Source: Geitlerinema sp. PCC 7407
Lineage (GTDB): Bacteria; Cyanobacteriota; Cyanobacteriia; PCC-7407
DNA: 64,000 bases
Assembly (NCBI RefSeq): GCF_000317045.1
Contig: NC_019703.1
Span: 2,158,501 to 2,222,500, forward strand
Reading direction: 5' to 3'
The notes beneath the pieces were generated by a model. The model had not been told where the DNA came from. It made no database searches and worked only from the letters and a program-made list of their open reading frames with translations. This document shows, piece by piece, positions 9,842-29,502 of the stretch (positions within the stretch are counted from its first letter, which is position 1; every line of letters starts with the position of its first letter). The position numbers and the translations under genes are program-made.

Positions 9842-10894
9842 ATGCCCCAATCCATGCCCCTTGTGCTTGTTGTTGATGACGAAAAAACTCTGCGCCTAGT
9901 CTTGCAGCGGGCTATGGAGCAGGAGGGCTACCAAACCATCGAGGCCCAGGATGGCCGAAACTGTTTGAATCTTTGTCAGCAGCAGCGACCCGATATCATC
10001 TTGCTCGACGCTGTGATGCCAGAAATGGACGGATTCGAGTGTTGTCGCGCTCTCCACGAACAGTTTGGCGACGCCTGTCCGCCCATTTTGATGATCACGC
10101 GCCTAGATGATACAGAATCGGTGGATCGGGCCTTTGCCGTGGGGGCCGACGACTATGTCACCAAGCCCATTCACTGGGCGGTGCTGCGGCAGCGAGTGCG
10201 GCGCTTGATGCAAACCCAGTGGGTCATGGACGAGCTGCGCCATCGCGTCCAAGAAGAAGAGGCGCTGCGCACCCTGCTCCAAAAGCAAATGCAGCAGGAG
10301 CGCTGTCTCAGCGAGCAGCTAGAGGCCGCCAATCGCCAGCTCGCCGACGCCAACTCCCAGCTTCAGCTCCTGGCCCACGTCGACGGCCTGACCCAGGTGG
10401 CCAATCGCCGCAGCTTTGATGAGTATTTGCAGCAAGAGTGGCAGCGGGCCCTTGTTCAGCGGGCCCCTTTGACTCTCATTCTCTGCGATGTGGATTTCTT
10501 CAAGGCCTATAACGACACCTATGGCCATCAAGCCGGAGATGAGGGTTTGCGGACCGTCGCCCAGTGCCTCCAGTCCTGCGTGCGGGGAGCCGTAGATCTG
10601 GTGGCTCGCTACGGTGGGGAAGAGTTTGCCGTGGTCTTGCCCCGGACCAGCCAGCTCGAAGCGCAGCGCGTCGCAGAGCGCATCCGCAGCGAGGTGCAGG
10701 CCCTGGCGATCGCCCACGAAAAGTCAGCGGTCAGTCCCTACCTCACCCTCAGCCTGGGACTCGCCAGCGCGGTGCCGAGCCCTAGCCTCACCCTAGAAGC
10801 CCTGATCGAACAGGCAGACCAGAGCCTCTACCAGGCCAAGGCCCAGGGCAGAAACTGCGTGGTGGCCTACGGAGGCAGCCTCTCGGAGGTTTAG
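9842..10894 (+). CDS. Response regulator diguanylate cyclase (REC-GGDEF)
   Basis: This 350-residue protein makes cyclic di-GMP when its receiver is phosphorylated. The receiver is at about 6-122 with phospho-acceptor Asp56 (ILLDAVMP) and the usual VVDDE, T and K (YVTKP) residues. A coiled-coil linker (about 128-178) leads to a GGDEF domain (180-345) with an intact GGEEF active-site loop at 258-262. The product-inhibition I-site RxxD is absent: the sequence before the loop is RGAVD, with Arg248 one place out of register. Feedback inhibition by c-di-GMP may therefore be weak (inference). It is 2 bp from the hybrid kinase and surely co-transcribed and co-translated with it. Confidence 0.93.
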   Translation: MPQSMPLVLVVDDEKTLRLVLQRAMEQEGYQTIEAQDGRNCLNLCQQQRPDIILLDAVMPEMDGFECCRALHEQFGDACPPILMITRLDDTESVDRAFAVGADDYVTKPIHWAVLRQRVRRLMQTQWVMDELRHRVQEEEALRTLLQKQMQQERCLSEQLEAANRQLADANSQLQLLAHVDGLTQVANRRSFDEYLQQEWQRALVQRAPLTLILCDVDFFKAYNDTYGHQAGDEGLRTVAQCLQSCVRGAVDLVARYGGEEFAVVLPRTSQLEAQRVAERIRSEVQALAIAHEKSAVSPYLTLSLGLASAVPSPSLTLEALIEQADQSLYQAKAQGRNCVVAYGGSLSEV

Positions 10895-10994
10895 GGCGAT
10901 CGCAGACCGCTGAGGCATTTTCCTTTACCTCGGGAAAGAACGGCGAAGCGGTGTATCCCTTCTGAGAGCTTTGTCCTAGAGAGTGCCTTCGCCT

Positions 10995-13682
10995 ATGCGC
11001 CCCCCAAAGATTGCCCTGCTCGTTTCGCTCCTTGCTCCCCTCCCGGCTGGGCCGTTTTTGCCGCTGCCCTTCGGCGCGATCGCCTCCTCTGCGGCCCAGG
11101 CCCAGACCCCCGACGCTCGCCAGACAGACGCAGACCGCCTCTTTCAGCAGGGCGAGCAGCAGCTCCAAACCAGCCAGTACCCAGCGGCCATCGAGTCTTG
11201 GCAGCAGGCCCTAGAGCAGTACCGAGCAGCCGCAAACCGCAATGGCGAAGCCAAGACCCTGGTGAATCTGGGGAATGCCTATGACTCTCTCTCGGAGTAC
11301 GCAAAGGCGATCGAGTACTACCAGCAAGCGCTCCCGATCTTTCGACAGGTGGGCAATCCCAGCGGCGAAGCGTCGGCCCTCGGCAGCTTGGGCAATATTC
11401 ACCGCGCTGTGTCCCAGTATCCGCGCGCCCTGGAGTATTATCAGCAGGCGCTCTCTATCTTTCAGCAAGTGGGCAATCCCAGCGGCGAAGCGGTGGCCCT
11501 CGCAAATCTGGGGCTGACCTACAGCGCTCTATCCCAGTATCCGCGCGCCCTTGAGTACTATCAGCAAGCGCTCCCGATCTTCCGGCAAATCGGCGATCGC
11601 CGGGGCGAAGCGAGGGCCCTGGTGAATCTGGGCAATGCCTACGGTTTTCTTTCTCAGTACGAGCGGGAGATCGAGGATCACCAGCAGGCCCTGGGGATCT
11701 TTCGGGAGGTGGGCGATCGCCAGGGCACAGCCCTCGCCCTAATGAATTTGGGCAATGCCTATGAGGCCCTGTCCCAGTATCAAAAGGCCATCGAGTATCA
11801 CCAGCAGGCGCTCCCGATCTTCCAGCAAATCGGCGATCGCGGCGGCGAAGGGGCGGCCCTCACCAATCTGGGAAACGTTTTCCAGTCTATCGCCCAGTAC
11901 CCGCGCGCCATCGAGGCTCATCAGCAGGCCCTCGGGATCTTTCAGCAAATCGGCGATCGCAATAGCGCAGCCAGCGCGCTCCTCAATCTCGGCAATGCTT
12001 ACCAGTTTCTCGGTCAGTACCCGCGCGCCGTCGAGGCTCATCAGCAGGCCCTCGGGATCTTTCAGCAAATCGGCGATCGCAAGGGCGAAGCCCTGGCCCT
12101 GATGAACCTGGGCAATGCTTATCGCTCTCTCTCCCAGCCCCAGAAGGCCATCGAATCTCATCAGCAGGCGATCGCGATCTTTCGGCAGGTGGGCGATCGC
12201 AGCGGCGAAGGCTTAGCGCTCAATAACCTCGGCGTGACGCTCTTTGAGTCAGGCAAGACTGATGCTGCCGAAAAGGCCCTCGTTGCGGCGATCGAAATCT
12301 GGGAATCCCTGCGGGCCGGCCTGAGCGATGAGAATAAGATATCGATCTTCGAGGAGCAAGCAAGAAGCTATCGCACCCTGCAACGGGTTCTTATCGCCCA
12401 AAATAAGCCAGGAGCAGCCCTGGCGATCGCCGAGCGGGGACGGGCCAGAGCCTTCGTCGAGCTGCTGGCGCAGAAATTTGGCGATAAGACATCGCTCCCG
12501 AATCAGGCAGCAACGTCAGCCCCTAGCATTCAGCAAATCCAGCAAATTGCCCAAGACCAGAACGCCACGCTGGTGCAGTATTCAATTATTTATGACAACC
12601 TCGCCCGCGAGAACCCAGGGCAAGCCCGGGAATCGGCCCTCTATATCTGGGTGATCCAGCCGGACGGTCAGGTCAGCTTCCGGCCCGTCGATCTCTCCTC
12701 GCTGTGGCAGCAGCACAGCGCCTCCTTGGCGGATGTGGTGGTTGGGCACCAAGCTTTTCTGGCCGGTCGCAACCGCCAGGGCCTTACTGCCGCCTCCGCT
12801 TCGGCTGCTCCCTCTCGCGCTAGCTGGCCGACCCTCCACCAGCTGCTCATTGACCCCATTGCGGACCTGCTGCCCCAAGACCCCGACGCCCACGTGATTT
12901 TTATTCCCCAAGGCTCCCTCTTTCAGGTGCCTTTTCCAGCGCTCCAGGACGCCAAGGGCGACTATCTAATCCAAAAGCACACGATTCTCACAGCGCCTTC
13001 GATCCAGGTGTTGGCCCTGACGCGACAGCAGCGAGAGCGACTGGCTAGCCAGCCAAAGAGTCGCCAGGGTGAAGCGCTCATTTTGGGTAATCCCGCCATG
13101 CCCAGCATGGCCCTGTCGCCGGGAGAGCCGAAAGAACCCCTGTCCCCGCTGCCGGGCGCAGAGGCCGAGGCAAAGGCGATCGCCGCTCTCCTAAAGGTCA
13201 ACGCAATTACCGGGGGCCAAGGCACGGAAACGGCGATCGTCGGAAAAATGCCGCAGGCTCGCCTGATTCACTTAGCCACCCATGGCCTACTGGACAATGT
13301 GCGGGGCCTCGAAAGCGCGATCGCCCTGACGCCGTCCTCAACGGATGACGGCTTCCTGACCGCCGCAGAAATTCTGGACTTGCAGCTCCAGGCAGAGCTA
13401 GTCGTCTTGAGCGCCTGCGACACGGCCCGCGGCAAAATCACCGGGGATGGCGTGATCGGTCTGTCGCGATCGCTAATCTCCGCCGGGGTGCCCAGCGTCC
13501 TGGTCTCGCTGTGGGCGGTCCCGGATGCGCCGACCGCTGACCTGATGACGGCCTTTTACCAAAATCTGCAAACCAACCCCAACAAGGCCCAGGCCCTCCG
13601 CCAAGCGATGCTGAGCACGATGGAAACATACCCCGATCCAGGGGACTGGGCCGCTTTTACCCTTATCGGCGAGGCGGAATAA
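10995..13682 (+). CDS. Exported TPR-CHAT protein (caspase-like)
   Basis: From ATG 10995 the protein has 895 residues (an in-frame GTG lies at 10983). Residues 1-37 look like a signal peptide ending in AAQAQ. About ten tetratricopeptide units of exactly 40 residues follow (roughly 50-430; consensus GNAY-LSQY-AIEYHQQAL-IFQQIGDR), making 120-bp DNA repeats. The C-terminal CHAT domain (about 600-893) carries the clan-CD dyad His763 (LATHGL) and Cys808 (LSACDTA) and ends with the usual GDWAAFTLIGE. Such proteins are abundant in filamentous cyanobacteria and mostly uncharacterised. The export signal suggests a periplasmic or surface role, unlike the cytoplasmic CHAT proteins of the adjacent island. 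Confidence 0.92.
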   Translation: MRPPKIALLVSLLAPLPAGPFLPLPFGAIASSAAQAQTPDARQTDADRLFQQGEQQLQTSQYPAAIESWQQALEQYRAAANRNGEAKTLVNLGNAYDSLSEYAKAIEYYQQALPIFRQVGNPSGEASALGSLGNIHRAVSQYPRALEYYQQALSIFQQVGNPSGEAVALANLGLTYSALSQYPRALEYYQQALPIFRQIGDRRGEARALVNLGNAYGFLSQYEREIEDHQQALGIFREVGDRQGTALALMNLGNAYEALSQYQKAIEYHQQALPIFQQIGDRGGEGAALTNLGNVFQSIAQYPRAIEAHQQALGIFQQIGDRNSAASALLNLGNAYQFLGQYPRAVEAHQQALGIFQQIGDRKGEALALMNLGNAYRSLSQPQKAIESHQQAIAIFRQVGDRSGEGLALNNLGVTLFESGKTDAAEKALVAAIEIWESLRAGLSDENKISIFEEQARSYRTLQRVLIAQNKPGAALAIAERGRARAFVELLAQKFGDKTSLPNQAATSAPSIQQIQQIAQDQNATLVQYSIIYDNLARENPGQARESALYIWVIQPDGQVSFRPVDLSSLWQQHSASLADVVVGHQAFLAGRNRQGLTAASASAAPSRASWPTLHQLLIDPIADLLPQDPDAHVIFIPQGSLFQVPFPALQDAKGDYLIQKHTILTAPSIQVLALTRQQRERLASQPKSRQGEALILGNPAMPSMALSPGEPKEPLSPLPGAEAEAKAIAALLKVNAITGGQGTETAIVGKMPQARLIHLATHGLLDNVRGLESAIALTPSSTDDGFLTAAEILDLQLQAELVVLSACDTARGKITGDGVIGLSRSLISAGVPSVLVSLWAVPDAPTADLMTAFYQNLQTNPNKAQALRQAMLSTMETYPDPGDWAAFTLIGEAE

Positions 13683-13924: not shown

Positions 13925-14705
13925 CATGGTAATAGTAATTTGATAAGCTAGGAGAATCAAGCATTGCAGCTAAATCGATGAATTGCCCCAAGTGCCAATC
14001 TTCTTAAATTATCAAATACGAGCATACCCATTACAGCAAACCACGATTCCACTGCCGAGACTATGGACGGCAGTTTGTTGAGGGTGCTACCCGACAATCA
14101 ATTGATGAGTCGACTCGCCAACTGATTGATAAGTTGTTGCTCGAACGCCTAGCCCCAGCAGCGATTGCACGGGTGACGGGCGTTTCTCCTCACTGGCTAC
14201 AAATGTATGTCAATCAGAAGTTCTACCAAACACCGAAGACCATCGAAGTCACCCAAAAAACCGGGGACGGTTGACAATTCAGTTGGATGAGATATGGTCC
14301 TATGTTGGCTCTAAAGCAAATAAACACTGGATTTGGTTGGCGATTGATGCTGATAGCCGTGAAATTGTTGGGTTATTTGTCGGTACGCGTTCTCGGCAAG
14401 ATGCAAAGGGGCTTTGGCAATCCTTGCCAGCCGTTTATCGTCAGTGCGCGATCTGCTACACCGATTTTTGGGAAGCTTATCAGCAGGTACTACCGAGGAA
14501 GCGGCATCGAGTAGTTAGCAAAGAAACTGGGCAAACCAGTTACATTGAGCGATTTAACAACACCTTACGGCAGCGAATCGGACGCTTAGTTCGCAAGACC
14601 TTGTCGTTTTCCAAGAAGTTGAGTAACCACATTGGGGCAATTTGGTACTTTGTGCATCATTACAATGACGCTTTGCGCTCCTAACCATTACTATTCATTG
14701 TCACC
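13925..14705 (+). mobile_element. Inactive IS1-family-like insertion sequence
   Basis: The element carries a two-frame transposase of IS1 type (InsA-like then InsB-like). Imperfect inverted ends share AATAGTAAT near 13930 and on the complementary strand near 14690. The exact ends and target duplication are not clear, so the limits are approximate. It sits directly beside the left flanking repeat of the accessory island. Confidence 0.65.
13978..14684 (+). pseudogene. Broken IS1-type transposase (InsA/InsB frames)
   Basis: From ATG 13978 the frame reads MNCPKCQSS and then hits TAA at 14005-14007, where the family has a charged residue. It continues in frame with a zinc-ribbon and helix-turn-helix part (HCRDYGRQFVEGATRQ, IARVTGVSPHWLQ) to TGA 14272. 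The catalytic DDE half lies in the -1 frame to 14684 (LDEIWSYV, YTDFWEAY, YIERFNNTLRQRI). An A6C run at 14255-14261 at the junction resembles the IS1 frameshift site. The early stop makes the gene non-functional even if frameshifting works. Confidence 0.75.
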
Positions 14706-14965: not shown

Positions 14966-15295
14966 ATGACTATCCGAGTGACGAATTTACCTGCACAGGT
15001 CGCTGAGGGGGATTTGAGGAAGCTTTTTTCAAGCTTCGGTGTAATTCAAAAAATTGATATCAAACTCGAACGTGACGACAACACCGCGTATGTGCAGCTA
15101 GAAGATGGATCTAGTGAAGCTCGTGCTAGGAATGACCTAAATGGAACAGAGTGGTTTGGTCAAATCATTCGTCTTGAGATAATCCGAGAAGGCAGTCGAG
15201 AAGGTGGGCAACCCAAATCCAATCCTATCATTCCTCCTGAGATAATCCAAGAAGGCAGTCGAGAAGATGAACAATCCGAATCTAATCCCGAATAA
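14966..15295 (+). CDS. RRM-type RNA-binding protein with repeated acidic tail, 109 aa
   Basis: Residues 1-75 form one RNA-recognition motif, with RNP2-like IRVTNLP at 3-9 and an RNP1-like NTAYVQLED. The RNP1 lacks one of the usual aromatic residues, so affinity may be altered. The tail has two near-identical units of about 20 residues (EIIREGSREGGQPKSNP, EIIQEGSREDEQSESNP). Ordinary cyanobacterial Rbp proteins have a glycine-rich tail or none, so this is a divergent member. A GGGTG-like site precedes ATG 14966. The next gene on the same strand is a CHAT protease 194 bp on. Linkage to that gene is positional only. Confidence 0.8.
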   Translation: MTIRVTNLPAQVAEGDLRKLFSSFGVIQKIDIKLERDDNTAYVQLEDGSSEARARNDLNGTEWFGQIIRLEIIREGSREGGQPKSNPIIPPEIIQEGSREDEQSESNPE

Positions 15296-16499: not shown

Positions 16500-19400
16500 C
16501 TAATTGCAGAAATGGTGTGAACTGTTGGGTTGGGTTTTTAAGTAATCGCGAATCTGGCTACAGCCTTTCTCCAGCAACTCCTTCAGATTGAGATTTGATA
16601 CTTTCCACAGCAAGACAACTCCATTCAAATCAGCAGAAGCTAACCATTGGTTATCAGGACTGAAACTTACAGCATTCACGTCAGCTTGATGTCCGATTAG
16701 GGTTGTAATTAACGTTCCATCCCGTCGCCAAAGTTTGATCGTCCGATCGCTACTAGCAGAGGCGATGGTTTGTCCATCAGGGCTGAAACTGACCTCAAGC
16801 ACAGCAGCCGTATGTCCTCTCAGCGTTGCAATAACCTTTCCGTCCAGACTCCACAACTTGATGCTTTCATCACTGCTAGCAGAGGCAATTATTTGTCCAT
16901 TGGGGCTGAAACTGACGTGTCGAACTGGATTGGTATGTTCCCGAAATATCTTGAGTTCTTTACCGTCTAAACCCCAAAGTCTCACGGTCCGGTCGTCACC
17001 AGCAGTAGCAATTATTTGTCCATTGGGACTGAAACTGACACTTAATACCCTACCCTGATGCCCCCTAAAGGTTCTAAGCTCTGTACCGTCTGAGCGCCAA
17101 AGCCTTGCGGTTGCATCATCACTAACAGAGGCGATTATTTGTCCATCGGGACTGAAGCTGACCTGATTTACGGCTCCTTGATGACCTTGAAGTATTTTTA
17201 GTGCTTGTCGTTCTACACTCCAGAGCCTCACAGTTTCATCATTACTAGCAGAGGCGATCGTTTGCCCATCTGGGCTGAAGCTTACACTATAAATCTCACT
17301 TTGATGCCCTTTTAGAGTGGAGAGTAACTTACCTGATGGGCTCCAAAGCCTTACCATTTTGTCAGACCCTGCACTCACCACCCATTTACCATCCGGGCTA
17401 AACTGAACGCTATTTACAAAACCATTATGCCCAACCAGCACAGTTAGCCAGCTTCGATTCACCTGCCAAATTTTTGTGAGCTTATCATTACTAGCGGTGA
17501 CAAGCATCTGTCCATCTGGGCTAAAATCCACACTGGGAATTTGTCCTTCATGAGCAGCCCATGTGTCAAGTTTTCTGCCATCTCGCGCCCAAAGATTCAC
17601 ACTGCCATCAGTGCTACTGGAGGCAATCGTTTGTCCATCGCGACTGAATCTGACGCTCCATACTTCTTGAGGATGGTCAAGGGTTTCTAGAAGTTGACCC
17701 TCTTGACTCCAGAGTTTTACTTTTCGATCCAGACTGGCGGTTGCAAACATTTCACCATCTGGGCTGAAGTCTGCACTCGTAACAACGTCAGTATGTGCAC
17801 TGAGGATTTTCTGCAGCGTTCCATCACGTCTCCAGAGCTTTACTGTCCTGTCATCGCTGATTGTAACAATTCGATTTCCGTCAGGGCTGAAACTTACTCC
17901 CCTGACCACGTTACTATGTCCCTGGATAGTGTTGAGCAATTGACCGTCCGTACGCCACAGTTGCACGGTTCCATCATCGCTGCCTGTGGCAATTGTCTGA
18001 CCATCGGGGCTGAATTGGACACTGAAAACCGTGTTCTTATGAGTATTGATCATCCGTATCGGATTGCCGTTACGATCCCAAAGCCTGACTGTTCCATCCT
18101 GACTGCCAGAGGCAATCGTTTGTCCATTGGGACTAAAACTGACGCTCACTACGGGTTCTGTATGTTCCTTTAGGATTTTGATTAGTCTGCCGTCCGAGTG
18201 CCACAGATTCACCGTATTGTCATAGCTGGCTGTGGCAAGTCTGTCACCATTTGGGCTAAATCTAACACTCTGAACCGTAGCTTGATGCCCTTTCAGACGG
18301 TTGTGCTCTCGCGTCCAGTAACCTGCTGCTGCCAACGTTGCCTGCATATCCTCCTGCATTCTCGGATTGCCCCAAAGGAGTGATTGAAAGCGGCTGGCAG
18401 CATCCAAACCAACCAGTAGCCCATCAACTGTATATCGATTGACTGCGAAACGGGCTTCTGAGGTTTGCCGGAGGGCAGTGATCTGTCCAATTTCGGCTCG
18501 CCTATACAGAATAGTTGAAAAAACGGCTAGCGCCGATGCCACTATGGAGAAAATCGAAACTACCATAAACTGACGTTTCTCCTTGCGACGTTGGCGATCG
18601 CGCAACTCGACACAAGCATCTACGTACTCAGCTTCGAGTTGGTTCAAAAACCCAGTTTGCTTGGATAGCACCTCAGCATCCTCCAATCGTCCGCCTCGAT
18701 GCTCCAGATATTCTTCCTTTCGCTGGTTTTCATCCCAATCTAGTGCAGCCTGACGGATAGCCTCCCGCAGTTGCAAGTTGCTGCGATTCTCCTCCAGCCA
18801 TTGTTGTAAACTCGGCCAGTAGCGGATTAACGCCTCATGAGCTACCTCCACTGTTTCTTTATTGGTGGCTGGGCCTGTACTGGTGACGACCAGTCTGGCT
18901 CCTTCATCTGCCAAACGCTTCACCAGTTGCTTTGTCGCCGTTAGGTCGCCTCCTTTGGGTACCAACTCATCGAGCCACACTCGCCGTCTCGTGTCCCGTC
19001 GCTTTTCTCCCTGTACGGTACTCTCGTCCAAGCGAGTGAGGCGCACAAAGATATCCCGGACTTGGTCTTGCTCATTAGATGGCAAGCTATTGTAAACATC
19101 ATCAGCAGTCTTTGCGATCGCCATCCTCACACCGCCGATCGCCTCGTATTCTTTACAGCGTAACCACCGTCCATGTCGCCGCTTCCACAGCTCTAGTAAA
19201 GCATGTTGCAGCAGTGGCATTGCCCCTGGCTCTCCTTGTACCTCATCGAGAATCAAGTGGCTCAAGCCCGCTTCAAAACGTAGATGTACGTGGGATGCTT
19301 GCATTTCAATCGCTTTGCGGAGTTCGCCGGAGTCCATTGGCGCAATCAATTCTTGCCTTGCCTGCATCAGCTCTTTGAGCTGCCGATGGGAGGCGCACTC

Positions 19401-21176
19401 TCCCCAAAAATCTGCCCGCATCGTAATGATTGTTTTCTGCTGCTGGGCAAGGTTTAATAATCGGTCGATGAATTCAACTCGCTTGGCTTCATCAGTACAT
19501 AGAGTAAATAGTTCCTCAAACTGGTCTACCAGCAGTACTGAAGGCTCAGGAGTCAGATGCGAAAGACTTGCATTGAGTTGTACTAGCGGTTCGCTACTTG
19601 GAGTCAGGTAGACTAGCTGTAAATTTGGCTGTTGACTCTGTAGCTGTGGAATCAAACCAGCTAGCAGCACGGATGATTTTCCAGAGCCGGAAGCTCCTAG
19701 CACGGCTAAGAAGTTATGCTTGGTCAACTTCTGTCGCAGTTGCTCAATGAGGCGATCGCGTCCAAAAAAGAACTCTTGGTCTTCGACGCGGAAGGGAGAT
19801 AGCCCTCGGAAAGGACAACGAGAATCATATTTTGGTGGTTGCTGCTCCAATGCCAAAGCGTTGAAGCTCAGGTCGAGGACTTCATCACAGAGGTTGTTGA
19901 CCTCCTCTAAAGTCTCCTTTCGCTCCTGACGTGCTTCTTTGCTTAGTGCGGTTGCATCTGCACCCAGTGTTCTATCCAGGATATCTGCCTGCTGCTTCAA
20001 CTTCTCTTGCAGCACGGGTGCCCGCTCAATCAGCAAGTTTTGCAGACGCTCTAAACCAAACTGAATTTCGGCGTTGGTTAGGTCTCGGTCAAGCTTGTCA
20101 CTGAAAAGGGGGCGTCCCCCCAGACGGCTGAACAAAGCTGGGACAGTGATGTCGTGACGTTCCGCGAGTCCTGCTGTCGCTTCATTCAAAGCTAAGTCTA
20201 CCTCTCCCGACTCCTTCAGTTGACGGTAAAAGCTCTTTGCCAAAGCTTGGGCGGTCTTGATTGTCACTTTTTCAGTCATCGCCACCACCGCAGGCATCCC
20301 CAGATCGCGCACCAAGCGCTGAGCTAATCCCCCTAATGCCTCTTCTGCTTCTGAACTAGCACTCTCACAAGTGGAGAAAAAGGCAAAGTGCGGTAGACCC
20401 CTCGCTCCTCGTAGCGATCGCAACCGTTCTAACAAGCGAGTCCCGGTTACTGGTTCGACGGAATTATCGGCTTTGGCCCAGTAGAGAACCGTCTCTCCTC
20501 CCTCGATCAGCTTGCCGTGGCAGACAACGTGCAGCAAGGTGTATTGCTTGGTTCGGTCGGTGAGCTGCTTGCACAGTTCATCTAAGTTGGGAAGTCCGAT
20601 CGCTCCATTAACGGTAGCCAGCACATCACAAGGAATTTCTCCCAGCGCTTGCCGGACGCTCTCTACAGTCGCCTCTACATCGAAGGAGTCTAAGCTAAAC
20701 CGTCCGAGTCCAGAGGGACTGGCTACTAATACCAGCGATCGCAAGTCCCGCCGTCCAATGGGAGGAAAGCGGCGATCAGTAATGGCGGGGATATACAGGG
20801 AAAAAGGCGTTCGCTGCTCAATGGCTAACAGATACCAACCGTCATCAATGTTGGCGCACAGCCTTTCCCAACGCAAGCTTCTCAGTTCTCTGTCTTCGGC
20901 TTCGATAAACAGCAGTACCCGCAGAGGTTCAGTCGAGTCGCGTAAAGCACAGACAAAGGCATCGCGCACTTCGTCTCGAAACAGTGCTTTGCCCAAGCGC
21001 GTACCGTAGTTCCTCGGCTGTCCTAGTAGGCTAGTGAGTTCCGAAAAATCCTCCTGAGTAAGCTGGAGAAACCCTTCAGCGCGGATAGGTAGAAGCACGC
21101 CCGGTCGGGTATGTTCGACAACAATCGGCCAGTATGCACCTGATTTGCGCTGGATGGTAATCTCGAAGGTGTTCAT
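16500..21176 (-). CDS. CHAT-nSTAND-TM-WD40 protein (paralogue 1), 1558 aa
   Basis: A leading beta-rich region (1-130, MNTFEITIQRKSG) is followed by CHAT at about 140-360, with His220 (HVVCHGK) and Cys270 (FFSTCESA). Next comes an nSTAND1 NTPase (about 450-840) with Walker A GASGSGKS (494-501) and Walker B LLVDQFEE (Asp551). A hydrophobic helix at about 868-890 could be a membrane anchor. Residues about 955-1530 form fourteen WD repeats of about 41 residues, enough for two seven-bladed propellers. By family logic, propellers sense a ligand, the NTPase oligomerises and the CHAT protease is released. It is last in the minus-strand operon and about half identical by eye to the gene upstream in its CHAT-nSTAND half. 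Confidence 0.92.
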   Translation of the reverse strand: MNTFEITIQRKSGAYWPIVVEHTRPGVLLPIRAEGFLQLTQEDFSELTSLLGQPRNYGTRLGKALFRDEVRDAFVCALRDSTEPLRVLLFIEAEDRELRSLRWERLCANIDDGWYLLAIEQRTPFSLYIPAITDRRFPPIGRRDLRSLVLVASPSGLGRFSLDSFDVEATVESVRQALGEIPCDVLATVNGAIGLPNLDELCKQLTDRTKQYTLLHVVCHGKLIEGGETVLYWAKADNSVEPVTGTRLLERLRSLRGARGLPHFAFFSTCESASSEAEEALGGLAQRLVRDLGMPAVVAMTEKVTIKTAQALAKSFYRQLKESGEVDLALNEATAGLAERHDITVPALFSRLGGRPLFSDKLDRDLTNAEIQFGLERLQNLLIERAPVLQEKLKQQADILDRTLGADATALSKEARQERKETLEEVNNLCDEVLDLSFNALALEQQPPKYDSRCPFRGLSPFRVEDQEFFFGRDRLIEQLRQKLTKHNFLAVLGASGSGKSSVLLAGLIPQLQSQQPNLQLVYLTPSSEPLVQLNASLSHLTPEPSVLLVDQFEELFTLCTDEAKRVEFIDRLLNLAQQQKTIITMRADFWGECASHRQLKELMQARQELIAPMDSGELRKAIEMQASHVHLRFEAGLSHLILDEVQGEPGAMPLLQHALLELWKRRHGRWLRCKEYEAIGGVRMAIAKTADDVYNSLPSNEQDQVRDIFVRLTRLDESTVQGEKRRDTRRRVWLDELVPKGGDLTATKQLVKRLADEGARLVVTSTGPATNKETVEVAHEALIRYWPSLQQWLEENRSNLQLREAIRQAALDWDENQRKEEYLEHRGGRLEDAEVLSKQTGFLNQLEAEYVDACVELRDRQRRKEKRQFMVVSIFSIVASALAVFSTILYRRAEIGQITALRQTSEARFAVNRYTVDGLLVGLDAASRFQSLLWGNPRMQEDMQATLAAAGYWTREHNRLKGHQATVQSVRFSPNGDRLATASYDNTVNLWHSDGRLIKILKEHTEPVVSVSFSPNGQTIASGSQDGTVRLWDRNGNPIRMINTHKNTVFSVQFSPDGQTIATGSDDGTVQLWRTDGQLLNTIQGHSNVVRGVSFSPDGNRIVTISDDRTVKLWRRDGTLQKILSAHTDVVTSADFSPDGEMFATASLDRKVKLWSQEGQLLETLDHPQEVWSVRFSRDGQTIASSSTDGSVNLWARDGRKLDTWAAHEGQIPSVDFSPDGQMLVTASNDKLTKIWQVNRSWLTVLVGHNGFVNSVQFSPDGKWVVSAGSDKMVRLWSPSGKLLSTLKGHQSEIYSVSFSPDGQTIASASNDETVRLWSVERQALKILQGHQGAVNQVSFSPDGQIIASVSDDATARLWRSDGTELRTFRGHQGRVLSVSFSPNGQIIATAGDDRTVRLWGLDGKELKIFREHTNPVRHVSFSPNGQIIASASSDESIKLWSLDGKVIATLRGHTAAVLEVSFSPDGQTIASASSDRTIKLWRRDGTLITTLIGHQADVNAVSFSPDNQWLASADLNGVVLLWKVSNLNLKELLEKGCSQIRDYLKTQPNSSHHFCN

Positions 21177-21393
21177 CCGTCACTTGGTTTTGCTGAGGTT
21201 GGTAGTTGCACAGAATTCTTGAGCTTGATGAGAACGAATGAATCAATTAGCGCTGCTGCTGATCTGTACAGATAATCAATGCCATCGCACAGCCGGCGTG
21301 AAGCGCAGCTATTCCCTCCGGAATAGCTCTCACTGAAATCAGCACTGAGGTTGTTCAAATAGCTACCACCCTATTGCAATTATCTAAAATACC

Positions 21394-24300
21394 TTATCGC
21401 TTAAGATTCCAAGCATATTGCTTACAAGTAGCCTTAGCTTCCTTGGCAACCTCTGTTTTAGGTGTAGCAAGAACAGGGTGATAGCGTAATCGTTCACAGG
21501 CAACCTTAAGCCAAGTATCCAAACGGATGTCCCACGATTTCACAGTACCATCACTCCCTCCAATGACAATAGTGTGCCCATCGGCGCTGATGACAGCAGA
21601 ATTGATACCTTTTTCGTGGGAAAACGGTGGACTAAGGGGCTGACCTTCGCGGTTCCACAGGTATATCTCATCTCCATTTAAACTGATGATGCTTTGGTTG
21701 TCGGCGCTGATGTCAACAGACCGAACAGGTGGAGTAGTGCTGCGGGAAATAGAGGGAGATACAATAGTGTTCCCTTTATAGGCTAGAAATGGTATGCGAG
21801 GATGCCACCAAGGTCTGTTCCACAGCATCACCTGACCATGCTCCCCCCCAGCGACAATAGTTTGTCCATCAGGACTGATAGCAACAGAACTAATCTTACT
21901 CTTTGGGAGAGGCGCTACACCGATACGCTGACCCTGGCGGTTCCAAACTTGCACTTGCTTGTCATCCAAACTGGCAATGGTCTGTCCATTAGGGCTGATA
22001 GCAACATAAGAAATCCCTTTCTTCATGGAAAACGGTGAATCGGCAGCCTTTCCTTGTCGGTTCCACTCTTGCACCTTATTTTCTTTTGTATTCAACCCAA
22101 AGATGGTTTGTCCATCTGAGCTAATGGCGAGCTTATAAAGCGATTCATTTTGGGTAAACGATGAAATGGGTGCTCTAGGATTTCTTCCTGGTCGTTTCCA
22201 CAGTTGCAGATTTCCCTCGTAATCGGTGACAAGAATATGTCCATCGGGAGTAATAGCAGTCTTGAGTGAATTGGTGATAAAGGATTCATGGTATCCTTGA
22301 GGTAGAGGTATTTTGAAGGAGTCAGGGAGGGGTTGAGCCTGAACGCTCCAAAGTTTTACGGTGCTATCGCTTCCTCCTGTAACGATAGTGTGTCCATCAG
22401 GGCTGATGGACACACTATGAACATTTGTATCATATTTGCCGAAGACAGAACCAATATAGAGACCGTGGCCTTTAAATGGTTCACTCAGAGGGGAAACTTC
22501 ATGGCTCCGAGCGTTGTAGTGCCACAGTCCTACCTTGCCATCACCTCCCCCAGTAACGATGGTCTGTCCATCAGGACTGATAGCGACAGATGTGACACTA
22601 TGATCGGCAGGGACTGAAAAGTCTGCAACCAGGCGCTTCCCCTGGCGATCCCACAATCGAACGCTGCCATCGAATCCTTTTCCCCCAGACTTAACATCAT
22701 TTCCAGCAGTAACGATGGTCTGTCCATCAGGACTGATAGCTACAGAATTGATGTAACACTGGATGCCCTCATCACAGACTTTGAAGGGTGTAACGAGGGG
22801 TTTACCCAGGCGGTTCCAAAGTCCCACCTTGCCATCATTTCCAGCAGTAACGATGGTTTTTCCATCTGAACTGATAACGATAGACGTGATAGTACTATCA
22901 TGGGCTTTGAATGGTAGAACAAGGGATATACCCTGCCTAGTCCAAATTCCCACTTTGCCATCGTCTTCTCCACTAACAATCATTGTTCCATCTGAGCTGA
23001 TAGCGACAGGTCTAACCTGAGACAGAGTCGCAACTTTGTGTCTAATACTTGCGAAGGAAGAATGGGGAATTATGGGGGTAGAAAATTCTTCTTTAAAGCA
23101 CTGATTGTGGCGGTTCCAAAGTCCCACCTTGCGATTTTGTCCGGCAATGACGATAATCTGCCCATCCCCACTAATGGCAACAGACGTGACAAAACCTGCG
23201 ACTTCACAGGTTTTTTTCAAATCTTGACCCTTACTGTTCAATAATTGCACCTTGCTAGTAGAACTCGTTCCATCACCTCCCACAATGACAATGGTCTGTC
23301 CATCGGTACTAAATGCAACAGCTCTAACTAATTCTGTATTGGTTTCAAAGGAATTTTGTTCCCGACTTATTTGAACCGCAGTGAATAAACTGTTTTGAGC
23401 GGAAGCTGGCATTGAGTAGTTGGGAAAACGGACAAAAAATGACTTAGCTAGTCCAACAGCACTAATAGCATTGACTAACCCTTCTGTAGGATTCGTAGCT
23501 AGTAAAGCTTTTGCTGCTGCTGCATACTGTTCCACCTGCTGTCGTTTTGTCTGTTGGAATGCGTATCCTAGCCAGACAACTAATCCCGTCATGATTACAG
23601 CAACAACAATCACGCCTGTAGTAGCCAGCCGCTGTAGGTTGCGTTGGCGATCGCGCAGCTCCACACAAGCCTTTAAATATTCAGTTTCTTGTGGATTCAG
23701 GTACACAAATTTAGGTTGTTTCAATAGATCTTCGGCATCTTGTAATCGCCCCCCCTGATGAATTAAATAGGTGTCTTTGTCTGGCTGATTCTTGTGTTTT
23801 TCCCAATGCTCTGCTGCTTGACTTATAGTCTCTCGTAATTGCAGGTTGCTGCGGTTCTGATCTAACCAATTCTGCAACATTGACCAGTAACGGATTAAAG
23901 CTTCATGGGCGACTTCCACTTCTTCATTACCCGTGGCGTCGTTCCGACTTGTAACCACCAATCGTGCTCCTTCACCGGCCAACTGCTGCACCAGCTTCTT
24001 TGTCACAGCCAGATCACCACCTTCCGGCACCAGATCCTCTAGCTCCACTCGTCGTCGCGTATCCCGTCGTTTTTCCCCTTGTACGGCACTCTCATCCAAT
24101 CGTGTTAAGCGAAAGAAGATATTCCGGACAAGCTCTTGCTCAGAAGCTGGCAAGCTATTGTAAAAATCATCAGCAGTTTTGGCTATTGCCTGCTGAACTC
24201 TACCGATGGCTTGGTACTCTTCATCACACAACCATCGCCCATGTCGCCGCTTCCACAGTTCCTGCAAAGCATATTGCAGCAGTGGCATCGCCCCTGGCTC

Positions 24301-26283
24301 TTCTTGTACCTCATTGAGAATTGAGTTGCTCAGGCCAGTTTCAAAGCGCAGTCCCGCCTTGTCTGCCTGCATCTTCATTACTGTAATTAGTTCAGCGGGT
24401 TTCATCGTCCCAACTAATTTTGGTCGGGCTTCAATCCGCTTACTCAACTCTGGATAAAAGGTACATTCGCCCAAAAAGTCCGCCCGCATCGTCATGACGA
24501 CTTTCCGCCGGGAGGCAAAGGTTAACAAACTTGTGATGAATTCTTGTCGATTGTCTTTATCCTCACAAAGGGTAAAAAGTTCCTCAAATTGATCTACTAG
24601 CAGTACTGACTGTTGTTCTGATACTTTCGATAGTCTTTCTAATCGTCTTTCTAGTTGTTTGACTGGCTCCCTACCCGGTGTTAGGTAAGCCCACTGTAGG
24701 CTAGGGTTTTGCTCCTTAAGCTTGGGAATCAGCCCAGCTAGCACTACCGATGACTTGCCACTGCCGGAAGGGCCGATAACGGCTAAGAAGTTATCCTTTT
24801 CCAGCTCCTCTTGTAACTCTTTAATCAGCTCATCGCGCCCAAAGAAGAACTTGTGGTATTTTTTGTCGCCGAAGGAATAAAGGCCAGGGAAGGGGCACTC
24901 AGCCTTGTATTCTGGTGGTTCCTTACCCAAGGCTGCCAGAGCATCAAAGCTGAGATCGAGTACTTGGTCACAGATGTTGTCGAGTTCATCTAAAGCCTGA
25001 CGACGCTCATTACGGGCAGCCTGTGAATCTGCTCCTCGTACATTATTCAGTTTTTCGGCATGCGTTTTAAATCTCTGCTTGAGCACAGAAGCATGAGGTG
25101 CCCGCTCTGCGATCAGCTTTTGGAGCTTCCCAATGCCATACCCGATTTCCTCGTCGGTTAGTTCGCGATCTTCGAGGCGATCGCTAAACAAAGGACGACC
25201 ACCCAAGCGGCTAAACAAGGCAGGAACCGTAATATCATAGCGGTCTCCCAGTCCCGCTGTTGCTTCCTGCAACGCTACATCTACTTCTCCCGACTCTCTG
25301 AGTCGTCGATAAAAGCTTTGTCCGATCGCTAAAGCTGTCTTGACGCTCACTTTGCGGGTCATCGCCACTACGGCCGGCATTCCTAAATCCCTCACCAACC
25401 GTTGTGCTAATCCACCTAATGCTTCTTCTGCTCTGGGAATGGCACTTTCGCAAGTGCAGAGGAACGTAAAATGAGGTAAATTTTTCTGATTGCCGACATG
25501 ACGCAGTTCCTCTAGCAATTCTTTGGCAGTAATTGGCAGAACTTGATCATCGGGTGTCGCCCAGTAAAGAACTGTCTCTCCCGTATCAATCAACTTCCCA
25601 TGACAAACAAAATGCAGTAAGGTGTATGGCTTTGGAGCATTTGTCAATTGTTTGGATAGTTCTTGTAGAGTGGGTGGACCGAGCGCACCTTCAACATTAT
25701 TTGCTAGAAAGTTATAAGGAATTTCACCCAGCGCTTCTTTGACTCCTGACAAAGCTGTCTCAACATCAAAAGATGCTAATTTATATGTTTCTAAATTGGA
25801 GGGACTCGCCACAAGTATCAACGCCCTTAAGTCTCGCCGTCCAATGGGAGAAAAGCAGCGATCGATAATTGTAGGGATGTAGAGTGAAAAGGGTACGCGG
25901 CGATCACGGGCTAACAGATTCCATCCCCCATCAGCATCAATGGGAGCGCATAATCTTTCCCAATGCAAGGTTTTTACTTGGTCTTTTTGGGATGCTTCGA
26001 TCGCGAGTAATATTCGCAGGCGGTTGTCCTGGCTGCTTTTGGAAAATGCGCGGATAAATGTATCTCGCACTTCTTCTCGAAACAGAGCTTTGCCCAGGAG
26101 TGTACCGTATGCTTTCTCGTTTTCGCTCTCTTCTATGAGTTTTTCAAAGTCATCCTGAGTGAGACGGAGAATTCCTTTGGCATGAATGGTTAAACCATCC
26201 GGTTGCTTACACCTGATAACAATGGGCCAGCTATTATCACCTGACTTGCTCTGAATGGCAATCTCGAACTCAAAGGTGTTCAT
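21394..26283 (-). CDS. CHAT-nSTAND-TM-WD40 protein (paralogue 2), 1629 aa
   Basis: Same architecture as paralogue 1. N-terminal region 1-140 begins MNTFEFEIAIQSKSG. CHAT is at about 150-370 with His228 (HFVCHGK) and Cys278 (FLCTCESA). nSTAND1 spans about 460-855 with Walker A GPSGSGKS (504-511) and Walker B LLVDQFEE (Asp564). A hydrophobic helix lies at about 884-908. The WD region (about 990-1600) has about thirteen to fourteen units. They are much more irregular than in paralogue 1, with insertions and long linkers and a consensus of VAISPDGQTIV-GGDGKVGLWNR. The protease and NTPase halves are conserved between paralogues while the sensor halves differ, which points to different ligands. The gap to the downstream gene is 217 bp. 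Confidence 0.92.
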   Translation of the reverse strand: MNTFEFEIAIQSKSGDNSWPIVIRCKQPDGLTIHAKGILRLTQDDFEKLIEESENEKAYGTLLGKALFREEVRDTFIRAFSKSSQDNRLRILLAIEASQKDQVKTLHWERLCAPIDADGGWNLLARDRRVPFSLYIPTIIDRCFSPIGRRDLRALILVASPSNLETYKLASFDVETALSGVKEALGEIPYNFLANNVEGALGPPTLQELSKQLTNAPKPYTLLHFVCHGKLIDTGETVLYWATPDDQVLPITAKELLEELRHVGNQKNLPHFTFLCTCESAIPRAEEALGGLAQRLVRDLGMPAVVAMTRKVSVKTALAIGQSFYRRLRESGEVDVALQEATAGLGDRYDITVPALFSRLGGRPLFSDRLEDRELTDEEIGYGIGKLQKLIAERAPHASVLKQRFKTHAEKLNNVRGADSQAARNERRQALDELDNICDQVLDLSFDALAALGKEPPEYKAECPFPGLYSFGDKKYHKFFFGRDELIKELQEELEKDNFLAVIGPSGSGKSSVVLAGLIPKLKEQNPSLQWAYLTPGREPVKQLERRLERLSKVSEQQSVLLVDQFEELFTLCEDKDNRQEFITSLLTFASRRKVVMTMRADFLGECTFYPELSKRIEARPKLVGTMKPAELITVMKMQADKAGLRFETGLSNSILNEVQEEPGAMPLLQYALQELWKRRHGRWLCDEEYQAIGRVQQAIAKTADDFYNSLPASEQELVRNIFFRLTRLDESAVQGEKRRDTRRRVELEDLVPEGGDLAVTKKLVQQLAGEGARLVVTSRNDATGNEEVEVAHEALIRYWSMLQNWLDQNRSNLQLRETISQAAEHWEKHKNQPDKDTYLIHQGGRLQDAEDLLKQPKFVYLNPQETEYLKACVELRDRQRNLQRLATTGVIVVAVIMTGLVVWLGYAFQQTKRQQVEQYAAAAKALLATNPTEGLVNAISAVGLAKSFFVRFPNYSMPASAQNSLFTAVQISREQNSFETNTELVRAVAFSTDGQTIVIVGGDGTSSTSKVQLLNSKGQDLKKTCEVAGFVTSVAISGDGQIIVIAGQNRKVGLWNRHNQCFKEEFSTPIIPHSSFASIRHKVATLSQVRPVAISSDGTMIVSGEDDGKVGIWTRQGISLVLPFKAHDSTITSIVISSDGKTIVTAGNDGKVGLWNRLGKPLVTPFKVCDEGIQCYINSVAISPDGQTIVTAGNDVKSGGKGFDGSVRLWDRQGKRLVADFSVPADHSVTSVAISPDGQTIVTGGGDGKVGLWHYNARSHEVSPLSEPFKGHGLYIGSVFGKYDTNVHSVSISPDGHTIVTGGSDSTVKLWSVQAQPLPDSFKIPLPQGYHESFITNSLKTAITPDGHILVTDYEGNLQLWKRPGRNPRAPISSFTQNESLYKLAISSDGQTIFGLNTKENKVQEWNRQGKAADSPFSMKKGISYVAISPNGQTIASLDDKQVQVWNRQGQRIGVAPLPKSKISSVAISPDGQTIVAGGEHGQVMLWNRPWWHPRIPFLAYKGNTIVSPSISRSTTPPVRSVDISADNQSIISLNGDEIYLWNREGQPLSPPFSHEKGINSAVISADGHTIVIGGSDGTVKSWDIRLDTWLKVACERLRYHPVLATPKTEVAKEAKATCKQYAWNLKR

Positions 26284-26324
26284 AATGCAATGTACCCTGT
26301 TTATTTCTTGATTGTTTATCAGCT

Positions 26325-26405
26325 TTACAAGTCTGGCGGTGCGAAAAATTCAGTTGTGAAGCGATCGCCACTCTTGCCTTGATTAGTAATCTCAAAGGCG
26401 TTCAT
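26325..26405 (-). pseudogene. Vestigial third start of a CHAT-nSTAND-WD40 gene
   Basis: The 26-codon frame starts MNAFEITNQGKSGDRF and then stops. It matches the opening of both giant genes (MNTFEITIQRKSG, MNTFEFEIAIQSKSGD) and lies just upstream of paralogue 2. I read it as the remnant of a third tandem copy, or a partial duplication of the 5' end. An independent leader-peptide role is possible but unsupported. Confidence 0.55.
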
Positions 26406-26426: not shown

Positions 26427-28103
26427 TTAACTTTGCTGCTTCAACTTATTAAGTAGATTAATTACATCTGACACTGTTGCCTGAAGTCTTTCGGCCTGAG
26501 GGACTGAAACTTTCTGAACTCTCTCTAGAAATTGTTCCAGAGATTTAACTAAGTCCATCTGAGCTTGCTTCAAGAAAGGTTCATCAAAGGTGGCTTCCTC
26601 ATTTAGAGGCGATATTGCAGGCGCAGACTGCAAAGTCACTGATTCAAGGACTGGTCGCTCAGTAATTACATCACCAACAGCTAGCCGCACTGCTGGATCG
26701 CCGATAATCGTATAGCTGCGGGCATCATTGTTAGCTGTCCACATACTAGCTAAAGACAAGTGATGAACCTCTGCACCACAATTTACATCTTCTAGTACAG
26801 CACTCAAGTCGGAGGAGAGTTCTGCATAGCGTTGGTTGAAAAACTCTAGAGCTGATCCCACCGGATGACCTTCCATCAGTCGCTTCAAAGCACTTTGAAA
26901 TACTCCCAACTGTGGTCCGGTGTTCTGCCACACAAAAGAACAACCCCAAGCTCGCTCCACATGACCGACTACGGCCAACGCCCCCCCTTTGGGATGACCA
27001 AGCAAGCGCTGCGGCAAGCGAGCAACAAATGCGTGAGGTGCAATAGTTGACTGTTTGCTGAAAGCATCTTTGTGAGCAAAATCATCCAACTTAGGCGTAC
27101 CCGCACCATAGCAGGCAAAGTGAAATGCGATTAATCCCAGCAATCGAGCGTCGTCACTAACGTCATCAGCACAAAAATAAAAATCTTCTGGAATGGCTCC
27201 TTGCCACTGGAGTGGACCCGGCCAGTCCTGACATATCAGTGCCCCTTGATGGCTTAACTGCCGTGAGTCGCCATTCGGAAAGCCCATACCATGACTAGCT
27301 GTAAACAGCAGGCTAGGAGTTTCGCTACCACCTAACAATTGCTCCAATCGCGCCTTGGTGCTTTCATCTTTGAGTAGGGTTTGCACAGTCCAGCTTGGCT
27401 GGTCTTTGAGCATTAATTCAGCCAGTGGTTTAATGAGGTGGTTAGCACTGAGTTGAGTAGCTTTGTCAGCATTGTTCCACACCCCAAAGAAGCTAGCGTG
27501 GCGAGGCAGTGAGAGCTCGCCTGTTTCTGCCTCTACTACACTGCGAGCATACTGAGCATACTCCTCCGGAGTGTCAAAGTGAATGCGACCCACTGCATAC
27601 TGCACGTCGAGTTGGTACTGAAAGCGATAAGGAATTGTCTTTGGGTCGCCAACGATAAGCAAGTAGTAGGGCATTTTGTCTGGATCGGCGGGACCCGGAC
27701 CTACTTTGTGACGAGCTAGAAACTTATCTTTTGACTCACCTGGACGATAAGCTTTGACACCCTCAAATTCTTGATAGTAATGTTCATTCTTCTTTGTTGC
27801 TTGCTCTCGGCGAAGATTCAGCAGCGGGCTGAGGGCTTCTTTAATTGCAGGGTCAACATTATGAGCGAAAATGACTCCCCAACCTGTTTCTGCCAGGTTT
27901 TTCGGGTCTACTCCTTCTACAGGAGCAAACTCTGGCTCTATACCTTTAATGTGCAGATTTTTTTTCTGAAGTTCAAGGAGGTGTGCTTCGTCAAACTTCT
28001 CACCACAAGCAATTTGGGAGACTTGCTCAGATGTTAGTGGTGGTAGCAAATACTCGCCAGTTGCCCCATCAATTCCATTGAAAAAGAACTGCTCTGTACT
28101 CAT
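26427..28103 (-). CDS. C25 (gingipain-like) clan-CD cysteine peptidase, 558 aa
   Basis: The protein has features of C25-type caspase-fold peptidases: a GDP motif in [16 protein letters not shown] (147-162), catalytic His271 in [15 protein letters not shown], catalytic Cys331 in [12 protein letters not shown], and the terminal [11 protein letters not shown] (464-474). Classical gingipains are secreted proenzymes with long adhesin tails; this one has no signal peptide and no tail, so it is predicted cytoplasmic. The C-terminus (about 500-558) is a helical, coiled-coil-like stretch. It lies between the hydrolase gene (43-bp gap) and the giant CHAT genes on the same strand. It could be a substrate activated by their proteolysis, or a second effector (inference). 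Confidence 0.82.
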
Positions 28104-28146: not shown

Positions 28147-29502
28147 TTAACTGCAAAGTGCTGCCTGCCACACAGCATGAGCCACTTCCGGTTTAGCAAT
28201 GTCGTTGTGAGCCCCCCCCAGCCCACCACCACTTTTATCGCAAATATAGGATGTTCCGTTCAAGTTATAGATTTTTCCTATCTCATACCCATACTGTTGG
28301 TCCGTGGGCAGCATCGGCATCATCACAATTTCAAGCCCCGGCCCTTGTGCTCCAAACGTACCCATGCTGCCATAGATAGGCAGTAATCCAGGGGAATAAT
28401 CATACTGCCCTGCAACTTCTACGCCGAGGGGATACATAATTCGCACCGCCGTATCATGAACAGATTGAGTTGTGACGATCGGTCCCCTCACCCGTCGATC
28501 GCGGATCAGGTCATGGAAATAGCCTGGTCTTCCTGGTTTAGGGGGAATATTCGAGCAGTATGACCAAAGTGACAGCGCCCCCTGAACTAGCACCACAGAA
28601 TCCACAGGTCGCAGCAGGTTGCTTTTTGAGGTTGTGCCTGCCAGCATTGCTGACACCACAATGCAGCCAAAGCTATGTCCCATCAGGTGAAATTGCACTT
28701 GCTTATCCGTTGCTTGTTGTAATCGTATTAGGAGCTGAGCGCCACCCGTTTCCCCAAACTGTCGTGCCCGATCCTTCATCTTCCAGAAAGACAATGTTCG
28801 CAAGGGAGCCAGCACACGATCGAAATTCCAGCTAGAACTGCCAAAGCTGATATCTCCATCACTCTCAAAATCTGCCTCTTCATAAATCTGCCCTGGGTCA
28901 AACACGTCGCGATCAAATCCTGGAGCTGCCCCTTCGCCTTCAGCAGTTAAACCCGCTTCCTGCTGCAATACTCTATAGGCATCTTGGACTTCTAGTGGCA
29001 ATTCGTCAGGCATGGGATCTTCGCTGGCGGCAGTCAAAATTGTGCGAAGTGCCTGTCGGGATGGGGTAGTATTGGCAATTCGATCGGCATATTGCTCAAC
29101 AAGTGAATCAATAAAGTCAGGCGTTTTAGTTGCTGCATCAGCTTCCGGTCCAGCAAAACTCACGCCTGCGTTCTCCAGTTCCTCATTCCCCCAGGGCTTA
29201 CTAGGCCAGTGCAAACCAATCAGTAGCGGCTTAAATTTAGGTCTGGCTTGTCGCATGCGATCGATATCCTGCTTTTGCCTTGCCATCACGGTCAGCCATC
29301 GGTTGTACTGGTCACGTGCTCCAGGGATATCCCCCAGCCAGCCATGACTGAAAATAAAAATATCTGTGCTCGGTTCAGTTTCCAGAACTTCCAGTAGCTT
29401 TTGACTCATCTTGCCATCCGCTTCCTCTCGCTCTTGACCTAGCGCATCAAAAGCAATTAGGTAATATTGCAGCCCAGATTCCGGTACAGTCTCGATCGGC
29501 AT
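28147..29502 (-). CDS. Alpha/beta hydrolase (lipase/esterase-like), first gene of the CHAT operon
   Basis: This 451-residue protein has an alpha/beta-hydrolase fold. The nucleophile elbow is GHSFG with Ser277 (HLMGHSFGCIVVS). An HG oxyanion-type motif lies at 52-55 (IFSHGWLGD), and a C-terminal candidate catalytic His is in GGAHNDIAKPEVAHAVW. A region of about 130 residues between strand parts (about 110-240), rich in acidic residues, may be a lid or a protease-sensitive linker. There is no signal peptide. A strong GGAGGTG site precedes ATG 29502, so this is the operon's first gene. The substrate cannot be read from sequence; lipid, ester or amide are all possible. In this setting a membrane-lipid effector is an attractive inference. 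Confidence 0.8.
   Translation of the reverse strand: MPIETVPESGLQYYLIAFDALGQEREEADGKMSQKLLEVLETEPSTDIFIFSHGWLGDIPGARDQYNRWLTVMARQKQDIDRMRQARPKFKPLLIGLHWPSKPWGNEELENAGVSFAGPEADAATKTPDFIDSLVEQYADRIANTTPSRQALRTILTAASEDPMPDELPLEVQDAYRVLQQEAGLTAEGEGAAPGFDRDVFDPGQIYEEADFESDGDISFGSSSWNFDRVLAPLRTLSFWKMKDRARQFGETGGAQLLIRLQQATDKQVQFHLMGHSFGCIVVSAMLAGTTSKSNLLRPVDSVVLVQGALSLWSYCSNIPPKPGRPGYFHDLIRDRRVRGPIVTTQSVHDTAVRIMYPLGVEVAGQYDYSPGLLPIYGSMGTFGAQGPGLEIVMMPMLPTDQQYGYEIGKIYNLNGTSYICDKSGGGLGGAHNDIAKPEVAHAVWQAALCS

Follow-up and report, generated by a model that had tools for sequence, protein, structure and literature searches.

nSTAND1 is named in the work of Kaur et al. (2020/2021) on STAND/EAD-type conflict systems of multicellular prokaryotes (main texts of PMC7159879 and PMC8195603). 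Receptors that join nSTAND1 to variable C-terminal sensors are a theme described in the main texts of PMC8195603 and PMC10907252, and FGE/C-type-lectin folds are targets of diversity-generating retroelements in other systems (PMC10907252). In the VMAP/MoxR-vWA ternary systems, as given in the main text of PMC7159879, genes for caspase-family peptidases invariably lie beside one for an alpha/beta-hydrolase; it was suggested by the authors that the two operate together, and proteolytic activation was proposed. A CHAT-nSTAND1-TM-WD40 receptor accompanied by a C25 peptidase and the hydrolase set out below was not found in the main texts of PMC7159879 and PMC8195603, and no description of the transmembrane (TM) topology or cysteine pattern of such receptors was found in the literature searched (main texts).

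The window, the whole 64,000-nt stretch of Geitlerinema sp. PCC 7407 DNA analysed here, contains one copy of an operon that is conserved and patchy in its distribution and that consists of a hydrolase gene (HYD), a caspase-like peptidase gene (C25) and then at least one CHAT-nSTAND1 receptor gene. All genes of the operon lie on the minus strand in this order, with HYD and C25 preceding receptor B. The features are as follows.

28147-29502, minus strand: HYD, 451-aa predicted alpha/beta-hydrolase-fold protein, first operon gene, with GHSFG nucleophile elbow
26427-28103, minus strand: C25, 558-aa predicted caspase-like peptidase (Peptidase_C25), second operon gene
26325-26405, minus strand: likely vestigial start of a third CHAT receptor gene, 26-codon open reading frame, A-type and not B-type, homology in the first ~15 codons
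21394-26283, minus strand: receptor B, CHAT-nSTAND1-TM-irregular double WD40 propeller, 1629 aa
25258-25869, minus strand: putative CHAT protease domain of B (His in LHFVCHGKL, Cys in FLCTCES; PF12770, residues 139-342)
23782-24894, minus strand: nSTAND1 NTPase of B (Walker A GPSGSGKS, Walker B VLLVDQFEE; PF20703, residues 464-834)
23557-23613, minus strand: predicted single transmembrane helix of B, VIVVAVIMTGLVVWLGYAF, mean hydropathy 2.44
21514-23361, minus strand: irregular propeller set of B, 13 recognisable WD motifs plus insertions
16500-21176, minus strand: receptor A, CHAT-nSTAND1-TM-regular 14-unit WD40 array, 1558 aa
20061-20771, minus strand: putative CHAT protease domain of A (LHVVCHGKL, FFSTCES), from 68% identity to the CHAT of B and the motifs
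18714-19814, minus strand: nSTAND1 NTPase of A (Walker A GASGSGKS, Walker B VLLVDQFEE; PF20703, residues 455-821)
18507-18563, minus strand: predicted single transmembrane helix of A, VVSIFSIVASALAVFSTIL, with 7 K/R in the preceding 15 residues and 3 in the following 15
16587-18305, minus strand: regular array of A, 14 WD40 units of ~41 aa each, cysteine-free

The sequence-only reading of this DNA had described two giant neighbouring CHAT-nSTAND-WD40 genes, one with a regular and the other with an irregular propeller set, and both points are borne out. The two open reading frames are uninterrupted and lie head to tail, separated by 217 nt, and in each the product starts with an N-terminal region, continues with the CHAT protease and the nSTAND1 NTPase, and ends, after a single hydrophobic helix, in a sensor of beta-propeller type. 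In Pfam, nSTAND1 (PF20703) was matched in both A and B with E of about 1e-112 and CHAT (PF12770) in B with E of 5e-12, while the CHAT of A, which is not among the Pfam matches listed, was assigned by its identity to that of B and its His/Cys motifs; with a His/Cys dyad in each, both domains are putative proteases. A and B thus combine an nSTAND1 domain carrying Walker A and B motifs (GxSGSGKS, VLLVDQFEE) with a C-terminal repeat sensor, as STAND NTPase receptors do. Among the Pfam matches listed, WD40 stretches number 14 in A and only 6 significant ones in B. The AlphaFold model of the B sensor has ~50 strands, compatible with two propellers; its best PDB match is 2YMU, a highly repetitive propeller, and Apaf-1 structures are among the top matches. 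A PDB search for sequence relatives of the N half of A gave none.

For C25, the Pfam profile PF01364 matched residues 366-474 (E 3.7e-9, above the cut-off), and His271 and Cys331 are invariant in 11 homologues at 65-76% identity; by profile and catalytic His/Cys, it is a predicted clan CD caspase-like peptidase. A PDB search for its sequence relatives gave none. HYD had no Pfam match and no significant Foldseek match (E 0.067). Its AlphaFold model (pTM 0.77) retrieved alpha/beta hydrolases in the top rows of VIA-align at Z 10-13.6, lipases and esterases included, with the best Z of 13.6 to the Nir1/DDHD domain. GHSFG and H432 are invariant in the HYD alignment. On the model, HYD is a predicted alpha/beta-hydrolase fold with a GxSxG nucleophile elbow, lipase-like in character.

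Several further genes lie close by. A short way downstream of receptor A is an IS1-type transposase gene at 14271-14684 (PF03400, E 2e-23), a possible sign of locus mobility. A plus-strand gene for a short CHAT protein (PF12770, 15457-16437) adjoins receptor A, and one for a small RRM-type RNA-binding protein (14966-15295) lies between it and the transposase gene. A short homologue of the CHAT protein, 38% identical, adjoins the operon of genome G435 (L096:3816-4325). A further CHAT protease, an 899-aa TPR-CHAT protein at 10983-13682, is encoded less than 10 kb from the operon. A giant hybrid histidine kinase of 2144 aa with CBS, GAF, PAS, receiver and Hpt domains is found at 3405-9839, and a receiver-GGDEF gene comes next at 9842-10894.

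The HYD-C25-receptor arrangement was found again in more than 25 loci, mostly of Nostocaceae. C25 occurs with CHAT-nSTAND1 genes in 28 loci and is adjoined by a HYD homologue in about 25 loci; receptor, C25 and HYD are the only gene families common to most loci, and no other neighbour recurs as widely. Some receptors have no C25 or HYD nearby, namely those of L097 and of L053/L054, the last two on short contigs. Across 390 genomes of the class, seven have a C25 homologue (four of these close, at ≥69% identity) and five have a strong CHAT-nSTAND1 match, and all four genomes with a close C25 are among these five; the three distant C25 homologues each adjoin a WD40 gene. In the family of G204, the source of the Nostoc loci, a strong receptor match is present in 18 of 193 genomes. 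One receptor copy sits on a Nostoc plasmid, and receptor relatives also occur in Parabeggiatoa and Chloroflexota. The distant C25 homologues of L123, L124 and L125 (43-45% identity) come from three other cyanobacterial families and lie directly beside WD40-repeat genes in a different gene order. The trees of HYD and C25 are concordant, and in both the window joins G435, whose operon carries a B-type receptor, and three Nostoc-type genomes whose operons have tandem receptors (support 97-98), while these tandem receptors themselves fall elsewhere in the receptor tree. Since the HYD and C25 trees agree but the receptors group differently, receptors come and go beside a HYD-C25 backbone that is steadier. 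The locus defines a compact three-part unit of lipase-like hydrolase, C25 caspase and CHAT-STAND receptor.

The protease-NTPase halves of A and B are closely similar, as the sequence-only reading had it, with 62.5% identity across CHAT and nSTAND1 versus about 30% in the propeller halves. Alignment by domain gives a divergence that is unequal along the length: the N-terminal region is 57% identical, CHAT 68%, the linker 51% and nSTAND1 63%, and the values then drop to 37% around the TM helix and 32% in the propellers, with no identity left at the C-terminus; the collapse comes at about residue 865. Such a pattern, together with adjacency on the same strand and a common architecture, is what a recent tandem duplication of one receptor gene with subsequent divergence of the sensor could leave, and duplication followed by sensor diversification was the history originally proposed. 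However, both genes have closer relatives elsewhere: Nostoc receptors match A at 72-73% identity, and receptors or receptor fragments of other cyanobacteria match B at 76-80%, versus 62% between A and B. Separate, anciently split clades, which the proposal had itself set beforehand as the case against it, are what the N-half tree gives, with A as the first branch beside the Nostoc receptors (support 84) and B inside another clade with G435, G471, Oscillatoriales and Microcoleaceae receptors (support 100). Forcing A and B as sisters is 340 lnL units worse (AU p 0.0174). Synonymous divergence between A and B is near saturation, the window identities are flat and the longest exact common tract is 20 nt, with no tract pointing to gene conversion between them; conversion within the regular WD array of A, suggested as a check, was not seen either, its best unit pair reaching 67% DNA and 61% protein identity. 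The recently duplicated pair was accordingly rejected, as A and B are not each other's closest relatives in tree or identities, and we regard such an origin as very improbable. By these comparisons, A and B apparently descend from two lineages that separated long ago and came to lie behind a single HYD-C25 pair; as the relatives compared with the window's genome belong to the same class only and the host is phylogenetically isolated, recent events and the order of gains at the locus are not datable. Similar receptors in tandem can thus mislead, here having been assembled from old lineages and not newly duplicated.

The proposed history also included a third vestige repeating the shared N-terminus. 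Its open reading frame starts 21 nt past the C25 stop codon and keeps the start frame. Against its best relative, the start of L113_4210, 37 of 45 nt are identical, with a score of 60 versus a shuffled maximum of 41. The repetition stands for the first ~15 codons, only the first 46 nt being clearly homologous to the start sites of the family; no convincing homology was found past codon 15, nor did comparison with gene ends as a deletion junction give anything convincing. The octamer GCGATCGC, which makes up part of the match, is very common in cyanobacteria, and the shortness of the frame and the confinement of the match to its start could also suit a functional leader peptide or a chance reading frame. 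Against such an origin, which we consider quite improbable, the frame, the start codon and the site directly past C25 fit a receptor start, the score exceeds that of any shuffled sequence, and a scan of the whole window with the first 45 nt of A matched A itself, the vestige and B only. The vestige is therefore likely the stump of a third receptor since lost. It lacks the FEFEI insertion at the start of B-type genes, and it is best matched by the receptor that comes second in Nostoc tandem operons.

The idea of a constant effector with diversifying sensors, which does not describe how the A and B pair arose, is upheld in their relatives. N and C halves are decoupled across 703 pairs of relatives. 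L107_1885 shares 89% identity with L098_6210/L047_8001 in the N halves but 25% in the C halves, where a WD40 sensor stands against an FGE-sulfatase/C-type-lectin fold, and between L056 and L057 identity is 92% in the N and 47% in the C half, with dS leaping from 0.30 to 1.9. CHAT-nSTAND1 receptors with FGE-sulfatase/C-type-lectin sensors in place of WD40 are located at L098:6210-9614, L047:8001-11405 and L047:3100-6543. Because synonymous sites between A and B are nearly saturated and dS of the sensors is not computable, dN/dS was taken from close pairs of relatives. In several of these, dN/dS is about 0.05-0.1 in the switch half versus about 0.3 in the sensor half, with local dN of 0.3-0.4 in the sensor, while in the pair-type receptors L052, L107_6799 and L098_9627 the excess in the sensor is small or absent. 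Nowhere does dN/dS exceed 1 over a broad region, and there were no clear hot positions of hypervariability within the WD unit; in the long Nostoc sensors, changes are denser outside the recognised WD units. These data support a sensor half that often evolves faster than the switch half and is replaced outright across the family, a pattern of replacement and faster change that stops short of demonstrated positive selection. By analogy with NLRs, an arms-race reading is plausible. The sensor is a natural cassette, and near-identical switches with unrelated sensors offer good material for ligand finding by swaps.

Most family members have one TM helix between switch and sensor, and within the junction and the N half no segment other than this helix, which follows nSTAND1, is strongly hydrophobic. 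In 32 of 33 members, more K/R residues precede the helix than follow it (190 versus 83). Behind the helix, 27 of 34 propellers are cysteine-free, and the C-terminal tail holds exactly two cysteines in 31 of 33 proteins with a helix, though these proteins are related and the counts are not independent. In A, the only two cysteines behind the helix are both in the tail, at residues 1539 and 1557; B has six after the helix, an even number, four in the propellers and two in the tail, and is with L060 (a relative with a helix and 14 cysteines) an exception to the cysteine-free propeller. The helix-less members (two Oscillatoria genes, G435 and G434; four in all, two of them nearly identical) have 5-11 propeller cysteines and are scattered over different parts of the receptor tree. 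Propellers without a TM helix contain 1.3-1.8% cysteine, control proteins from four genomes included: the 4 control WD40 proteins with a clear helix have no cysteine in the 1881 residues behind it, and the 10 without one have 94 in 5138 residues, 2 of the 10 being cysteine-free. In the cyanobacterial controls L157-L176, 14-blade propellers that follow a TM helix hold almost no cysteine and come with two in the tail, and most of those without one hold about 12-15 cysteines. The cysteine pattern may be a general topology signature.

The reading that we favour, with moderate confidence, is of a HYD-C25-receptor operon with a constant CHAT-NTPase switch, a replaceable sensor, anciently diverged A and B, extracytoplasmic sensing and a protease cascade. 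The CHAT-NTPase half would be the constant switch, and the C-terminal half would be an exchangeable sensor, most often a WD40 double propeller and at times an FGE/C-type-lectin fold. The bias in charge, the depletion of cysteine and the pair of tail cysteines suggest, from composition, that the sensor lies in the oxidising environment outside the cytoplasm, is tethered through a single TM helix to the NTPase inside and drives a cytoplasmic protease cascade. Here we infer a ligand, the protease cascade, a lipid target and a role in defence: a ligand bound outside would cluster the receptors, and NTP binding would drive oligomerisation; the CHAT proteases, activated by proximity, would process C25, possibly themselves and perhaps HYD; processed C25 would release or activate the lipase-like HYD, which would attack lipids and cause membrane damage or cell death. 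More tentatively, and at slightly under even confidence, the locus could represent a membrane-spanning class of STAND receptors whose interchangeable periplasm-facing sensors, WD40 double propellers or C-type-lectin folds, switch on a cytoplasmic CHAT-C25-lipase cascade; as an inflammasome-like system, it would detect threats before or during entry and not once they are inside the cell. If the sensors do face outside, the purely cytosolic picture of bacterial STAND immunity needs a second, receptor-like mode.

Two other explanations bear on topology and function. A point against the favoured reading is that STAND proteins are usually held by intramolecular autoinhibition, with which a TM helix between switch and sensor conflicts. 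Known STAND and NLR receptors with WD40 sensors are cytosolic. The complex might be cytoplasmic, with the helix buried or a mere anchor and the propellers, like those of Apaf-1 or fungal HET-E, sensing a ligand inside the cell, a picture to which the Apaf-1 structures among the top matches of the B sensor and the several members wholly without a helix would also lend themselves. It is nevertheless unlikely, given the charge bias across the helix in all but one of the members and the nearly cysteine-free propellers with paired tail cysteines behind it, as opposed to the mostly cysteine-rich helix-less propellers. As to function, PADLOC gave weak or generic matches only and NCBIfam no specific match to a known defence system. 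The operon might serve developmental or self-recognition signalling (HetF-like control of division or differentiation, or filament recognition) and not anti-phage defence. The CHAT region is weakly similar to HetF (E 2e-5, far below the cut-off), the carriers found are mostly Nostocaceae, and variable WD40 sensors would also suit allorecognition as in the fungal HET genes (PMC4986451). We find this doubtful: presence is very patchy even within the class and the G204 family, the plasmid copy and the relatives in Parabeggiatoa and Chloroflexota point the same way, and sensor replacement speaks against a core developmental role.

The operon can be set beside several known systems. It resembles the STAND/EAD-type conflict systems, as described in the main texts of PMC7159879 and PMC8195603, in its STAND switch, caspase-type proteases, patchy presence and multicellular hosts, and in its variable C-terminal sensors, FGS/C-type-lectin domains included. 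The caspase-hydrolase pairing in the VMAP systems makes the HYD-C25 pair, by analogy, likely a shared effector module; judged by the families common to the loci, the remaining window genes having been scanned in part, most loci here share receptor, C25 and HYD only, unlike the VMAP systems with their core of MoxR, vWA and VMAP (main text of PMC7159879). As in the DGR-diversified nSTAND1/CLec sensors (PMC10907252), some relatives combine nSTAND1 with FGE/CLec-fold sensors, but the sensors in the window are WD40. The fungal NACHT-WD40 proteins HET-E/D/R (PMC4986451) share the effector-NTPase-WD40 layout and variable repeats; however, they have high internal repeat identity and concerted evolution, whereas the units of A are at most 67% alike, so that a HET-E-like concerted array was rejected for A, and variation among the relatives here includes whole-module replacement. 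In Craspase, the type III-E CRISPR TPR-CHAT protease (PMC9729208), a CHAT protease is likewise turned on by a non-self signal, but through CRISPR RNA-guided target binding and without a STAND NTPase. The operon looks, by analogy, like a bacterial inflammasome. It shares with the Apaf-1 apoptosome an NTPase switch with two WD40 propellers, which in Apaf-1 recruits caspases; unlike Apaf-1, its receptors fuse an N-terminal CHAT protease in cis, have a C25-type caspase as partner and carry a TM helix between switch and sensor.
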